DNA of 64,000 bases from Corythucha ciliata. Lineage: Eukaryota > Arthropoda > Insecta > Hemiptera > Tingidae. The stretch spans positions 51,313,952-51,377,951 of the forward strand of contig CM075941.1 in NCBI GenBank assembly GCA_038030265.1, written 5' to 3'. The translations under genes and the position numbers were made by a program. Below the pieces are notes generated by a model, which did not search any database, had not been told where the DNA came from, and saw only the letters and a list, made by a program, of their open reading frames with translations. Of the stretch, positions 7,490-43,440 are shown piece by piece; the first letter of the stretch is position 1; every line of letters begins with the position of its first letter.

Positions 7490-8840
7490 TCTACCAAATT
7501 TTAGCTGTGAATTTAGCGTTTTTCACCATTTCAAACGCCTTATTCGTTTATTTATTTATTTTACCCGCGAGTTAGAGCTTTTTCAAAGTTTTAGCCGCTT
7601 GAATCGGCGTTTTTTTCTCAATTTTATTTCTGAAGTTTCCCAAGAATGTGCGAGTTGGCCGTGAATGAGCACATTTCTTAATTTTAGCTGCGAATTACAG
7701 CGCTTTTTCACCATATTATCCATAAAATCGCAATTTTTCATATCTTTGCTGAGTGAATTAGCATTTTCTTCTCTTGCAGACGCGAATTCGCGTATTTCTC
7801 TATTTCATGCGTGAACCACAGCGCGTTTTATTAATTCCAGTCCTACCCTCCGAGAATCCGTGAGTCGGTTTTTTCTCAATTTTAGGTGTGAATTCGCGCT
7901 TTTTCTCAATTTTTAAAGTTGCTAAATTGTAGCACTTTATCACAATTTTAGCCGTAAATTCGCGTTTTTCTCTTCTTTTTAATCCTTGAATTAGCGCTTT
8001 TCTCAGTTTCAGCCGCGTGAATTAGTGCTTTTGCCCAATGGCAGTCCCGATTTTGCTCCAAGTATTCGTGATTTTGCGTTGCCTCAATGTCAGCTGTGAC
8101 CTAGGGCTCTTTCTAAAGTTTTTAAGTCGCATATTGTTGCGCTTAATCACAATTCTAGCCGCGAATTAGCGTTTTTCTCCATTTGATATTTTCCCCTCAA
8201 GTTTAGCGGCGAATTAGCACTTTTTGTGTGTTCTTTCCGCAAATTGGCGTTTCTCAACTAATTTTTCTCTCTAATACTAACCCACCAATTAACATTTGTT
8301 TCATTGCATTGCAAAGTTACTAGTCGAAGAAACTATAGACGGTAAAATATATAAAGTTGAAAAGAACATTCAACTCCACAAAACCATTTAAATTTATCCA
8401 AACTTAATTTACATTTCATTTTAGCATTCAATAAAATATTTTTTTCACTAAAACCATAATTCCATTCCCGTAAAGTGGAAGTAAAAATGAAATTGCGTAC
8501 GCAACGTTACCCCAAGAATCCGTCATTTCGCGTTTTCTTAATTTCAGCTGTGAATTAGTGCTTTATCCCAGTATTAACGGCCACAAATTTACAGCAATTT
8601 TTCCAATTTCAGCTACGAATCAGCGTTTTTCTCAATTTTACAAGCGAGTTTAGCGATTCGGTTACATCTTATGCACTTAAAAATCATGATTTGCTCACAT
8701 TTAAGCTTTTCAAGGGCCAGATCCGACGGCCCCTGCGTCGGTACGCTAGAGGCGCCAGTAAATTAGGATGCCCCGCAAATTATCGCATTTTTCAAATTTA
8801 GCCGCGCGTAAAACCTTTTTTTCAAATTATGGGCATGTTC
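7490..8840 (+). repeat. Family A degenerate tandem array (~30-bp unit)
   Basis: The unit reads roughly CGCGAATTAGCG, TTTTTCTCAA, TTTTAGC and recurs about every 30-31 bp with heavy divergence. A non-repeat island at about 8280-8490 interrupts it. The stretch 8220-8340 is an inverted relative of 11435-11545, so this array and the one at 11290-13200 derive from the same longer element in opposite orientations. Confidence 0.85.
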
Positions 8841-9170: not shown

Positions 9171-11182
9171 ATTTCAGCTGCCCAAGGAGAAACGAGGATT
9201 CAGTGCATTTTTGCAATTTCAAGCGCGGACTTTGAATTCCCTGGGACGAATGAATGGAGGTCAATTCGAACCCTTTTCCTTCCTTGAGTGCCGTGAAGGC
9301 AGCGAAGGGGTGAAAGCATGGGTGAGAGAATAAATGACATGAAGCGTGCAATACCACGTGCTAAGCCTTAGGTAGATAATGATATAACTCCAGCCGTTAT
9401 AGTATCTTTCTCGGTGTCACTTTACCTGGCAACGTCAAGTGCACTATCCTATAGACGTTCTACTCACATTACCGACACATTTTAGTTTTTATTTGGAATG
9501 TACACGAAATGTAAGAAAGTTTTAGGGTAGTAGAGAAACTTTTCATAGCACACCACTCAAGGCTATAAACTGTAAAACTGCATAATGGGGACCATAATTA
9601 GCGAATTAAAGTTGGAAATCGAGCCACATAAAGAAAAAAAAAAACACGAAAAGTTCACTCCCATTCTCATTCTTCGAGTGTTTTTCTTTTCTTTTCCAAG
9701 AAAATAGTATTAAAAAAAGATATATCCGTGGCAAGCCGTAACAATTGCTAAAACACTTGAATCTGATTCACTCGATCCAAAGTTCAACAAGAAAATAAAA
9801 AACTTATTCCAATTTCCGCTTCATTCCTTCTCCAAATGTTCAAACAATTGTCTTCCTCGGTCAAACGATAAATGACCAGAGTTTTGTGTGAACGACTAAT
9901 GAAATTAAAGTTGTCTCAGTGGGCAGGGGGTGTGGCTTTTGTGAAACGAATAAAAAGAAGGACCACGCTTTTCTTTAATGGCACCGTATCAATTGAGATA
10001 ACATCAAGTGGGTGAAAATAAAACTCTTTGATGATATTGAAAACTTGAAAGGTAAATACTCAGCTGAAAGTTGAAGGAAGGTAGGGGGGGGGAGTGGAGG
10101 CTGATGTGTTTCAGCGATGACGCAGTGTCATGAGGGGAGTCGGGAGCCCTTCCACGCCCGTGAAATTGGTGTTTTCATTTATAAAGTGTGTTTTGTTATT
10201 CTGAAGTGAACTGGAAGGGCCCTGACTCTTGAGTAATCATTTTTGAAGATAAAAAAAAGGCACTCAAGAAGCAGAAATACTTTAAATGTAAATTGCTTAC
10301 TTTATACTCCACCATAAAAATTGAAAAATGGAGGCACTGCTCAATTTTCACAATTGGTGACATTAAAGAATTCCTTAATTTTATTTTGTCTTCTCGATTT
10401 TCTATTTTTATCTTTTGTAAACAAGACTATCCCTGCGGTATTCAAGCCGCCTCACTTACTATCCGAGAAACAGCGCAGCTGCTTTCTTGTGAAGCAATCA
10501 CACCCCCTCTCGCTCCTTACAACCTTATTTCTGTCTGTGTAACTTGAGATTATACCGAGATAGAGAAGTAAGAGTGGGTAAATAAAAGAAAAGAGGTTTT
10601 CCAGCCGCCTTGGTGAGAATGGCGAAAGAAAAACGTTTGGTCTATTTACATCCAGATATATGGGCGTGTGAAAGAGAAGAGCATGTGGCCTCCTCAATAT
10701 CAGTGGCATAAAAGAGTGAAACTTGCCAACGGAAAGCGGTAGTTTCGTATGCGTTGGAAATGAATGAACCACAGTTAAAACACGTTCATTTAACGTCTAA
10801 TTCATCACGAATACCACCAGATTCAGGTGCAACCCTGCCTCGTTCATTTAAGACGCGGAATCTTACTGCAGCATCCGAAAACTGGTAACCTATAGTTCTG
10901 AATAATTGACTAAGTACGCCATAACATAGACCATTCCTGCCACAGAAGTTGGCATCAGACAAGCCTTTGATAGGGTTATCCCTGTGATTTTGGTCTCACG
11001 AAGTGTCTCGTAGACCGCAGCCACGGAATCATCAGGCCTGATGGTTGCAAGGCATAGCCACAACGCAAGTGGCCCTCGTCATCATCATCATCAAGATCTT
11101 TTTTTTTTTTTTTTGCTTGTCTGTGACCGAATTTGGTCCTCAATCGCATCAGAGTCCACGCTCAGGCTCTAGCGTACCGAGG
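9171..11182. other. No gene seen
   Basis: Unique-looking AT-rich sequence with G-runs (10084-10093), a CAT microsatellite beside a T-run (11083-11116) and short ORFs of low complexity. Nothing is recognised. Confidence 0.45.
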
Positions 11183-39301: not shown

Positions 39302-39463
39302 AAATGTGTCGTTCTCACAAAAGTTGCACTTTTTTAGGCAGGAATTTCCTGCTTGTTAACTGTGTCCAATTTTTGATTTCTTTATCAAAATCGCCTGTGC
39401 TGGGGTCTCTGAACAATTTGTGACAGCAGCAATTCATCAAAAATGATGCAACCCCAGATACAT

Positions 39464-39537
39464 GAATTTGAAAATTTGAAGCATCCAGATTAATGAGATT
39501 GAGGACAGATTAATGAAAATCAAGCCAGATTAATGAA
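39464..39537 (+). promoter_or_regulatory. Left subterminal repeat cluster
   Basis: Four copies of the 13-bp motif (39464, 39485, 39505, 39525), two of them with one or two changes. By analogy with hAT and P elements these are likely transposase-binding sites. Confidence 0.65.
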
Positions 39538-39967
39538 TTCGATGTAAAATGGAACACTTCATTTCGTAGAATTTGATCAAAGAATAAATTTGGATTTAGA
39601 TTCGTTCAGTACATCATGTCGTCACCATTCTTTTAAAAGAAGAAGGTAATTAAAACCCGGATTGTTCAAAAAAGTAATAATTTTATATTTCTATTCAGTC
39701 AAATTACACAGCCTTTCAAGTAGTCACACTTATTGGAATTGAAATATTCCAAAAGTGAATTTAGTCTTTTCGAGTAACTCATTTAAGCACCTACAAAAAT
39801 CAGAGTAACTTTTAAAAGGAACTTCAGAAAACGACTCACACATTAAAAAATCTTTTTAAAAAATTTTTTAAAACTGTACCTTGAAAAAATACAGCGAAAT
39901 TCCGCCCACCTTCAATTGTTTTACTAAATCATTTCAGCACCCTCATTTAAGAATGATTGTTTCTGTA

Positions 39968-42622
39968 TTAACGAACATTGAGCTCTTTTAAATTTTCCTT
40001 GAAAAAATATCTATTCCTCGTTATTGCAGGTGGGCGCAATTTCGCTACCACGTCCGAAAGTATAACGCTGGACAAATCGATAACAGAGGGAAATATGTAA
40101 TAATTATTTTTTTTCCTTAAAAATGAAACGTCGTAATCATTCTGGCTAAATTTCGAGGAAACCATCCCAATGTAGAATACAAACTTCTTTTTGACTAAGA
40201 ATCTGACTAGAACGTAATCATTTACTTCGAGTTCTTCGGCCGTTTTGAGATGCTCGGAGGCAATGGATTCGACATCTTCTACTGTCGCGACCGTTTCCTC
40301 CGAGGGCTCATGGTGTCCGGGAAACTCGTTCACTTCATGAGAGGTGATTTCCAGTACTTGAGTTGGGTCAATGTCCTCGATTGGTGGTACAGTTGTTTCC
40401 TCTTGAAATGGACTATGCTCGCCGATCTTGAATTTGGAGCATTCGAAGCACTCGAAGCAACTTAGCTTATTGAGTTTAATCTTCGTTGGTTCTTCGTTGG
40501 AATACACCACCTGGTGAACTTGAAGCATCCCTTTGAATGTCTTTAAGTTGTTAGGCAGGATGTTCCTCACAGCCGAAATATCGTCTCCTGTGACGACATG
40601 AATGAGGATGTTTCTGCATTCAGCCCGTAGTGCCGAAGTCAACGCGTCAAACGTGGCGATGTCCTTGCCTTGAGCCACCAGCCGGTCGGCTGTCCGCTTG
40701 AGGCATCCACCCACGCCGTCTGCAGCTCCTTTGCCGTGTCCTGAGACATGGTAGTTCCAGGTGGCGAATTTCACATCCGGGAAATGATGAACCAGTGCAT
40801 TACATAACAAATAGAATACAGTTTTATTTTTATATTGAGCACTGGGGCCATCAGTAAGAAAGTGGCAATTTTGAATCTTTTGTTTTAATGATTTAATAAA
40901 TTCAAACACGGGTTGCATGTGGGCCCAAACTGATGGTGCGTCGTGGTCCAGAACATCAGACATTGTGCAAATACTTTTGCTTTTAACCGGCCCGAAGTGC
41001 TCAGTTTTGAAATACACTACAACAGTATGCAGTGAAATCTGTTGCCTACTGCCCCCAAAATGGAACGACTGCACTTCAGTTCCATATTTCAAGCAGTAGT
41101 TTTCACTGAAGTCTGCAGTGATCAAAACATCACCAACGGTGAGGAAACGTTTCAGGTGAGCTACTTGTGCATTTTGGTGACGTATGCTTCCAACGTGTTG
41201 GAAAAAGCTTTCCAGCTTATCTTCGAAAATATGAACGAGGTCATAAAGGGTCGCCGTAAGTTGCTCTTTTTTAATCTTTTTCACAGTTTTGCGTGTCTGG
41301 GTGTTCTTATCCATGTAATCAGCTTTTGTATTGATCCACTGGTGATACTGCACTTGGAGAGCGCCATCAAAGGTTCTGTAGTGAGTAGTTTTATACTGGC
41401 AACACGTGCATTTTCGAAACAAACAGTTGGCGTTCATTGGATCACAGCATACCTTACTCAAAACTGCCGTAGTGCTATTTTCTGCGATGGCTTTGTAGCG
41501 ATGGAGAGTTCCAATCACAAGTGACATATTTTCGTGGACCAGACATTTGCACGTGTCCCGTACACTCACTTTTGGAACGACTGCCCAAAATGGCCTTAAG
41601 CGGCAAAACGAGGAGTAACTTAAATTGTACGCGTGTGACTTATTGAACCGGCCGTGTAAGTTCTTTAGGGAATCATTCAGCAACCGTTTTTGTTTCTTCA
41701 ATTTCTTGAATGTTATGGTGTCTCTTTTCCCTGGACAGCATTTGGTAACGTCGTCTTGTTCAAAAAAAACTCCAACATCCCGACGAACAAAGTCATTAAT
41801 TGCCTTCATTTTTCGAGTTACATTCCGGTTGTTTGTCGCAGGTCGCCGCCTAAAAATACATTCGCTGAAAGTGTGGAAGGTGTTAATCAATCGGTATTTA
41901 CGCAACTGACGTTGATTTCCAGCAATGAATTCTCGGAAAATCGATTTGCTTTTGTGGGATTTTAACTGCCGATATTTGTCATGAATATCTGCCTGGACCG
42001 CTTCTGCCAGAAGCAATCGTCTTCTGACCACTTTTGCACCCTGTCTCATAATGTTGCTGACTATTTTTGACGGAGAATCGTGTGACTGAATTTTCCTTTT
42101 TAATCGGTAAAACCGTTGTTTGATTCGAGAGTTGTCACGTTGTAGTTTTTTGTTCATTTCAGTGAGTTTTATATTTTCCCGAAATAGTTTCGATCTGTCT
42201 CTTCGAACTTTCTTCCGCCCCGAGTTAGCTTGTTTTGATGACGATGGCCGGACTGCCACTGGAGGAGTACTTGGTTGTGAAGAATCCTCATCGCTTGAAT
42301 TTGGGGGAGAATTACGGTCCAAAAATTCAGTCACTATTCTTTGACTCCTCTTCCTCTCTGCGTATGCCCTGCTGTTCTGCCTCCACTGTTTTCTCTTCTT
42401 TCTTTTCTCCATTTCAGTCATTTCACTCACCATCTTCACAGCCTTCCGTCTCTTTCTATCTTCGTAGTTGGTATGCAATTTCTTCCTTCGCTCCTCTAAT
42501 GCTTCGGCGTCGTTTTTCATCCTCTCGTATCGAGCCCTTTCAGCTTCCCTCTTTCTTCTGAGTTTCTCATCTCTGGACATTTTTTTATTGGGCGCCATGG
42601 TCTCGAGTTCTGGAACATCCAA
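39968..42622 (-). CDS. Putative transposase, 884 residues, uninterrupted
   Basis: Residues 15-95 are highly basic and helical (KLRRKREAERARYERMKND, KRKQWRQNSRAYAERKR). 104-135 is a Ser/Pro linker. 137-180 is a second basic coiled coil. A cysteine/histidine cluster follows: Cys358, Cys360, His363, Cys392, Cys393, Cys400, Cys405, Cys407, Cys408. Three conserved-looking acidic blocks suggest an RNase H-like transposase core: Asp504 in ITADFSENY, Asp591 in LTDGPSAQYKNK and Asp635 in GHGKGAADGVGG. The C-terminal part (797-862, DYVLVRFLVKKKFVFYIGMV) looks like a Tudor or SH3-like barrel. I recall the HGKG-DG-GG motif from uncharacterised invertebrate proteins, often repetitive in genomes. Position between TIRs and subterminal repeats makes it the element's transposase. 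The first Met (42622) is used; Met9 or Met15 are alternatives. No intron is needed. Confidence 0.85.
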   Translation of the reverse strand: MDVPELETMAPNKKMSRDEKLRRKREAERARYERMKNDAEALEERRKKLHTNYEDRKRRKAVKMVSEMTEMEKRKKRKQWRQNSRAYAERKRSQRIVTEFLDRNSPPNSSDEDSSQPSTPPVAVRPSSSKQANSGRKKVRRDRSKLFRENIKLTEMNKKLQRDNSRIKQRFYRLKRKIQSHDSPSKIVSNIMRQGAKVVRRRLLLAEAVQADIHDKYRQLKSHKSKSIFREFIAGNQRQLRKYRLINTFHTFSECIFRRRPATNNRNVTRKMKAINDFVRRDVGVFFEQDDVTKCCPGKRDTITFKKLKKQKRLLNDSLKNLHGRFNKSHAYNLSYSSFCRLRPFWAVVPKVSVRDTCKCLVHENMSLVIGTLHRYKAIAENSTTAVLSKVCCDPMNANCLFRKCTCCQYKTTHYRTFDGALQVQYHQWINTKADYMDKNTQTRKTVKKIKKEQLTATLYDLVHIFEDKLESFFQHVGSIRHQNAQVAHLKRFLTVGDVLITADFSENYCLKYGTEVQSFHFGGSRQQISLHTVVVYFKTEHFGPVKSKSICTMSDVLDHDAPSVWAHMQPVFEFIKSLKQKIQNCHFLTDGPSAQYKNKTVFYLLCNALVHHFPDVKFATWNYHVSGHGKGAADGVGGCLKRTADRLVAQGKDIATFDALTSALRAECRNILIHVVTGDDISAVRNILPNNLKTFKGMLQVHQVVYSNEEPTKIKLNKLSCFECFECSKFKIGEHSPFQEETTVPPIEDIDPTQVLEITSHEVNEFPGHHEPSEETVATVEDVESIASEHLKTAEELEVNDYVLVRFLVKKKFVFYIGMVSSKFSQNDYDVSFLRKKNNYYIFPSVIDLSSVILSDVVAKLRPPAITRNRYFFKENLKELNVR

Positions 42623-42632
42623 CGACTTATTT

Positions 42633-43254
42633 CATTCATCTGGCAGGTATATCATTCATCTGGCTTGTTGAATTCTCTAGGATCCAGATTAATGAGATCC
42701 AGATGAATGAGATTTCACTACAAAGCCTTGAATATGTCGAAAACTACGCTACTTGAACCAATGAAAAGGAAATGTGACTTTTTGTAATCACCTAAGGTAC
42801 CAAACACATGCAGCACTGCTTCCTTAATTACTACTCAAGAGGAATAAAACATGCCAGATGAATGAGGAGTAATAAAAACACTTACCAGTTTTCAAATCAA
42901 CTTCTGCTCACCTCGAGATCTGGTGAAGAACTGAGAGGAAAAAGCCCGCGTAAGAGCCAAGGCAAGGTTTCAGTGTTGCCAATTTTGATGTTTGAAGACT
43001 GACATTACTTTGCACATGATAGAGGGAAGTTGAAACGTGACGGGCCAGATGAATGAGGTCAAACCTTGGTGACAGCACAAATTCGATCATGATGGATCAA
43101 AGGGGTACCAGCGCTCGAGTTTTTAATCTGCATATGTGAAGTTGGGATGTGCAGCAAATGAAATAATTTTTTCCGGCTAAAATAAATGAACTAGTTTAGG
43201 AGCTGCAGATTCTCAAATCCCACGTTCAGACTAAGTGACAGCCAGATTAATGAG
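42633..43254. promoter_or_regulatory. Right subterminal repeat cluster
   Basis: Copies of CCAGAT(T/G)AATGAG at 42684, 42699, 42854, 43045 and 43242, and shortened inverted copies (CATTCATCTGG) at 42633 and 42653. The cluster overlaps the presumed promoter just upstream of the transposase start, so binding could also control its expression. Confidence 0.65.
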
Positions 43255-43440
43255 AAATTAGTCATTTTAAATTCGATAAAACTAAGAATAAACCATACAT
43301 TGGCAACGTATATATGTGATGCATCTGCAGAGCAACATGATAATGATAATTGGGGGATAAAATATTCGTCTAGTTATACCGTGAATTATTTTATCGTCCA
43401 GTGACTCAAATAGCGCATATTTTGTGAGAACGACCCAAAT

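Follow-up and report, generated by a model that had tools for sequence, protein, structure and literature searches.

A probable Sola-like transposon of Corythucha ciliata contains an array of short non-coding sites whose layout is kept in two related families

The window analyzed here, a 64,000-nucleotide stretch of the Corythucha ciliata genome (contig CM075941.1, positions 51,313,952 to 51,377,951), contains a 4131-bp DNA transposon at window positions 39306 to 43436 with 17-bp terminal inverted repeats (TIRs) and one unbroken gene. The new finding is that ten short non-coding sites lie inside this element and that their layout is kept in two related families of the same genome. The element and its close copies are called family A, and the related families B and C. 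We infer from the layout and motifs that the array sites are transposase-binding sites that change along with the enzyme.

A search of the window with CCAGATKAATGA, one mismatch allowed, returned 13 matches, 10 of them inside the element, and none of 100 shuffled sequences reached 13. Three sites on the plus strand lie toward the left end: CCAGATTAATGA at 39485 to 39496, 179 bp from that end, ACAGATTAATGA at 39505 to 39516, and CCAGATTAATGA at 39525 to 39536. Two inverted CCAGATGAATGA sites on the minus strand (42632 to 42643 and 42652 to 42663) are located upstream of the ATG of the transposase gene, which is read from the minus strand. They are followed on the plus strand by CCAGATTAATGA at 42684 to 42695, by CCAGATGAATGA at 42699 to 42710, 42854 to 42865 and 43045 to 43056, and by CCAGATTAATGA at 43242 to 43253, 183 bp from the right end. 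Four of the ten sites make up an inverted cluster region 34 to 112 bp 5′ of the ATG. Numbered in the direction of the gene, the 5′ sites are at 184, 381, 572, 727 and 742 (minus) and at 774 and 794 (plus), and the remaining sites are 219, 199 and 179 from the 3′ end (minus). Deletions remove array sites in some family A copies.

Families B and C were reached from the weak DNA matches of a genome search, which gave seven loci. The motif of each is its most repeated 9-mer, picked regardless of position. The family B motif, CAGGGGAATGAC, has 8 sites, located at 179, 376, 568, 724 and 739 (minus), at 774 (plus), and at 202 and 181 from the 3′ end (minus). The family C motif, GTGAGGGAGA, has 10 sites, located at 178, 418, 608, 766 and 780 (minus), at 800 and 820 (plus), and at 232, 200 and 180 from the 3′ end (minus). 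Shuffled non-coding DNA reached the top 9-mer count in 4 of 1000 trials for family A and in 0 of 1000 for each of families B and C. All 8 family B sites fall within 6 bp of a family A site in the same orientation, which was equaled by 0 of 20,000 random placements. Four of the 10 family C sites fall within 6 bp of a family A site (24 of 20,000 random placements equal) and all 10 within 40 bp (0 of 20,000), a tolerance that was set afterwards. When the 5′ array was rotated with its inner spacing kept, the agreement of B with A was reached by 8 of 830 rotations and that of C with A by 37 of 830. The agreement of C with B is only 4 of 7 sites within 40 bp, which 168 of 830 rotations matched. A blastn comparison of the family A non-coding DNA with that of B or C returned nothing beyond chance (best E = 0.085). 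Same-strand neighboring sites 5′ of the gene are mostly 155 to 197 bp apart (240 bp once in family C), which is near nucleosome spacing.

The motifs of families A and B agree in 8 of 11 letters, and the family C motif is different. The proteins of A and B are 47% identical over residues 1 to 100, and those of A and C are 30% identical over residues 54 to 296 and 46% identical over residues 288 to 657. Motif and N-terminal part thus appear to diverge together in the three families compared.

Family B consists of five loci (L022, L023, L024, L027 and L028) of an element of about 3575 bp with 29-bp ends, GGGTRATTCCACTAAAAGTGGCGAAATCA. Its 4-bp target-site duplications (TSDs) are ATTT, AGAT/AGAA, AAAA, ATAA and ACGT/ACAT, its copies differ by 0.4 to 1.4%, and its protein is 43 to 47% identical to that of family A up to residue 726. 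Two of the five copies have unbroken 753-residue open reading frames (ORFs; L022:3905-6163 and L023:2741-4999), and family B is perhaps a better activity candidate than the window copy. Family C is represented by a 3951-bp element with a broken gene (L026), 27-bp ends, GGGTCATTCTCCGAAAGTAGGGAATTT, and the TSD ACGT, and by an interrupted copy (L025). The latter is cut by large insertions, and the site about 180 bp from its visible end is kept. The TSDs of families A, B and C are exact in 13 of 16 cases and have one mismatch in 3 of 16; these counts leave out a family A copy that has no right end (c11), a family A fragment (L016) and L025, of which one end is seen.

The original prediction described the window element as an apparently intact, little-described DNA transposon with matching ends, an AAAT duplication and an uninterrupted gene for an 884-residue transposase. 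An inverted-repeat search bears out the boundaries. The left TIR (39306 to 39322, plus strand) lies on the 3′ side of the gene and the right TIR, GGGTCGTTCTCACAAAA (43420 to 43436, minus strand), on its 5′ side; they match in 16 of 17 end bases and are flanked by AAAT at 39302 to 39305 and 43437 to 43440. The single mismatch is private to the window copy, where base 2 of the left end gives GTGTCG versus GGGTCG in 11 other left ends (10 copies and one fragment). The ORF is unbroken on the minus strand. Its longest reading has the predicted 884 residues, starts at a TTG and spans 39968 to 42622 with the stop. A length of 876 residues from the ATG (39968 to 42598, stop included) is preferred because both the homologue alignment and the family B protein start there: the ATG at 42598 is the start column of the alignment with a nearly invariant M1, and the family B protein begins MAPKKK at the matching start. 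A TIR-like 15-mer with one mismatch at window positions 9882 to 9896 had no partner or TSD by eye within 9500 to 10300 and is taken as chance or a relic.

The transposase was modeled and aligned with its homologues. The structure model has an RNase H fold at residues 476 to 665 (40604 to 41173, minus strand) with D496, D583 and D627 in the canonical places. The alignment and the model both point to these residues, whose codons are at 41111 to 41113, 40850 to 40852 and 40718 to 40720 (minus strand). They correspond to Asp504, Asp591 and Asp635 of the longer reading, which the original prediction had placed in three acidic blocks that could form a D/D/D core and had proposed to check by structure prediction. 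Of 232 homologues spanning these positions, 231 have all three aspartates. The count started from 233 proteins, close relatives among the matches listed, from which one with no residue aligned to the last Asp was removed. The model and the alignment support assignment of the protein as an RNase H-like enzyme with three catalytic aspartates (DDD). A Cys-rich segment at residues 350 to 400 (41399 to 41551, minus strand) is a candidate zinc-binding region, and C352, C385, C392, C397 and C400 are invariant in the 45 sequences of an alignment that takes in 44 of the best 120 homologues (141 found). The domain alignment comprised 33 homologues and two family B proteins. The basic helices of residues 1 to 96 (42311 to 42598, minus strand) are the candidate DNA-binding part. 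The model ends in a putatively Tudor-like beta-barrel at residues 793 to 866 (40001 to 40222, minus strand), which the family B protein lacks. Tudor chains are among the Foldseek matches, in a table that gives no aligned residues, and the Foldseek matches are weak when taken alone.

Homologues of the transposase are frequent in insects and occur in molluscs, a sea star and a fish; those with names are mostly labeled "uncharacterized" or "unnamed". A Pfam search found no family that fits the window protein, and the 45 members matched three unrelated families, each in 1 of 45 at E values of 0.001 to 0.008. The description as little known therefore holds for Pfam, where this transposase family has no entry, yet the family is frequent in insects. 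A sequence search of the PDB returned no solved chain at E ≤ 1, and a profile search returned three coiled-coil or bZIP chains alone (E = 0.63 to 9.4). No relatives were found in the phages, viral contigs or prokaryote genomes searched. Two beetle homologues, P0146 and P0229, are annotated as other transposases by name or domain (hAT dimerisation in a UniRef name; PF04827 and PF13359) and may represent fused gene models or nested elements.

A search of the 400.9-Mb genome, in which copy counts are lower bounds, found at least 10 further family A copies, each retaining 3.7 kb or more of the element, plus one 332-bp fragment. The copies are spread over five contigs and all 10 share the left end; the eleventh copy, c11, is without its right 401 bases. 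Each of the nine other two-ended copies has a 4-bp duplication, which is exact in 8 of them and has a single mismatch in the ninth. With the window copy included, the ten TSDs are AAAT, ATGA, AGTT, ATAA, GCAT/GTAT, ATAT, ATAT, TTAT, AGTT and ATAT, which are mostly A/T-rich and exact in 9 of 10 cases with one mismatch in the other. These results confirm a DNA transposon, and neither a structure without the RNase H fold nor copies with other boundaries or no TSD were seen. Each copy departs from the majority base at 5 to 23 sites (0.12 to 0.56%, mean 0.37%). Singletons account for 139 of the 149 variants among the 11 copies, the pattern expected if the copies left one source within a short time, and the copies appear to stem from one recent burst followed by neutral decay.

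Only the window copy (1 of 11) has an ORF that no stop, frameshift or insert interrupts. Copy c09 likewise has no stop, but a 7.7-kb insertion splits its ORF. Substitutions in the ORFs of the 11 copies are 74 non-synonymous versus 16 synonymous (82%), and the window copy has 8 versus 2; the non-synonymous share expected at random is 78.8%. The ratios are near random, and the open frame is therefore without visible selection. Two amino acid changes in the window copy hit family-conserved residues, 63 and 691. The predicted intactness stands for the reading frame and gives way at the changed end base and in the substitutions, and the window copy looks to be decaying. Copy c05 has a 1.27-kb insertion (L021:379-1645) whose ends are TG...CA and which, with its ACTA duplication, resembles a solo long terminal repeat. 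Copy c08 has its left 332 bases, together with adjoining flank, repeated on the same contig at a distance of about 15 kb (L029:5882-6819 and L008:4744-5686; 943 bp, 98% identical). The window element sits within a stretch of a diverged, roughly 30-bp repeat with a TTTCTCAATTTNAGCCGC core, for which 39 matches were counted, at up to 2 mismatches, between window positions 7674 and 63051 versus 0.01 expected. An Rfam scan of the window found no relative.

Judged by described features, the element is probably Sola-like and a member of the Sola superfamily, with the subgroup left undecided. The part of PMC10741241 that describes Sola gives a DDD transposase, 4-bp TSDs, sizes of mostly 2 to 9 kb and TIRs of 11 to 1124 bp. 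The D-D-D residues of 231 of 232 homologues with the RNase H topology of the models, the 4-bp TSDs of 16 two-ended copies in three families, the TIRs of 17 (A), 29 (B) and 27 bp (C) and the sizes of 4131, about 3575 and 3951 bp agree with this description. The compatibility with Sola noted in the original prediction thus holds on that account, as a fit and not as proof of membership. A slime-mold Sola2-type element is described in a section of PMC3627910 with an 888-residue transposase, 12- to 13-bp TIRs and AT-rich 4-bp TSDs. AWWT and similar TSDs are reported there for slime-mold families, whereas AWWT is found here in 5 of 16 TSDs (left copy) and the rest are mostly A/T-rich. An excerpt of PMC8634313 places Sola families among the insect transposons inserted in a baculovirus, so some Sola elements have been mobile. 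A limited literature search showed no report of site arrays in Sola. Text searches found no match for HGKG with transposase or for GRG together with Sola, TSD and transposon, and the matches listed for the string GGGTCATTCC looked unrelated, judged by title.

Other superfamilies were compared in the same way. Kolobok, as characterized in a passage of PMC9587614, resembles the element in its 4-bp duplication, 5′-RR...YY-3′ termini and DDD/E transposase. Kolobok and piggyBac require a TTAA duplication, which is seen in 0 of 16 TSDs. Chapaev (CMC) resembles the element in the length of its duplications, given as 3 to 4 bp in the relevant part of PMC4079192, but its CAC...GTG termini are absent: all three families begin GGGT and have GGG...CCC ends. 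Ginger has TG...CA termini, as opposed to GG...CC here, and no Pfam integrase match indicates a Gypsy-like integrase. Tc1/mariner duplicates TA, and the duplications here are 4 bp.

The element is probably a cut-and-paste transposon, most likely of the Sola superfamily, with transposase-bound internal sites that serve its ends and its own promoter. The DDD transposase would cut at the GGGTC.../...GACCC ends and use a 4-bp stagger to insert the element into DNA that is mostly A/T-rich, which would account for the 4-bp duplications. The transposase itself would bind the ten internal sites. Those lying about 180 bp in from the two ends may aid end recognition and pairing, and the inverted cluster just 5′ of the ATG may allow the transposase to control its own promoter. 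The window copy has probably lost some function and might act on other copies in trans.

Another DDD superfamily, or a yet-unnamed one, that likewise makes 4-bp duplications is a lesser but appreciable possibility. The Pfam results, in which no model fits and the three unrelated families each match a single member, are consistent with it, as is the fact that the resemblance to Sola rests on descriptions and not on reference sequences. Each of Kolobok, piggyBac, Chapaev and Ginger fails a defining feature, however, and the Sola features described in PMC10741241 are present. For the array, binding by a host transcription factor or chromatin protein in place of the transposase is unlikely. Host promoter factors could bind the four sites that lie 34 to 112 bp 5′ of the ATG, the upstream spacing of 155 to 197 bp is near that of nucleosomes, and the A and B motifs are similar. 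One host factor does not demand the other motif that family C has in a matching layout, and sites occur about 180 bp from both ends, even the end distant from the promoter. Different motifs occupying matching places in one genome make a host binder the less likely of the two.

The window copy could also be an autonomous transposon that is active today. Its unbroken ORF, two ends, exact TSD and close copies favor activity, but its second end base is unlike the 11 other left ends, its 8 non-synonymous to 2 synonymous substitutions are as expected without selection, residues 63 and 691 are changed, and the mean 0.37% distance from the majority base points to an older burst. Present activity is accordingly improbable. 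A host gene derived from a transposase would explain why one copy among 11 is unbroken; with TIRs and a TSD flanking the gene, copies on five contigs and no sign of purifying selection, the chance of this is negligible.

A broader reading of the array as transposase-bound sites is possible, and we hold it with some doubt: it may be a conserved address system operated by the transposase, in which the geometry is kept, enzyme and motif change together, and each family reads its own sites. If so, one protein-DNA code would set end pairing, self-repression and the independence of families within one genome. The families of one genome would provide a natural series of DNA-binding proteins that changed, each with its sites, under a fixed layout, and binding specificity, end pairing and self-control would be testable in one system.

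The model shares its RNase H-like fold with the Tc1/mariner transposases (Mos1, Metnase and Sleeping Beauty) and retroviral integrases, whereas sequence similarity to any solved chain is absent at E ≤ 1. Ac and the P element have sub-terminal repeats that bind transposase, and in some elements with such repeats end binding is tied to promoter control. Kat1 is described as an element with sub-terminal transposase-binding repeats, and the present element likewise has several short sites inside its ends. Unlike in Kat1, Ac and the P element, the sites near both ends share one orientation here, and families with different motifs retain one layout.

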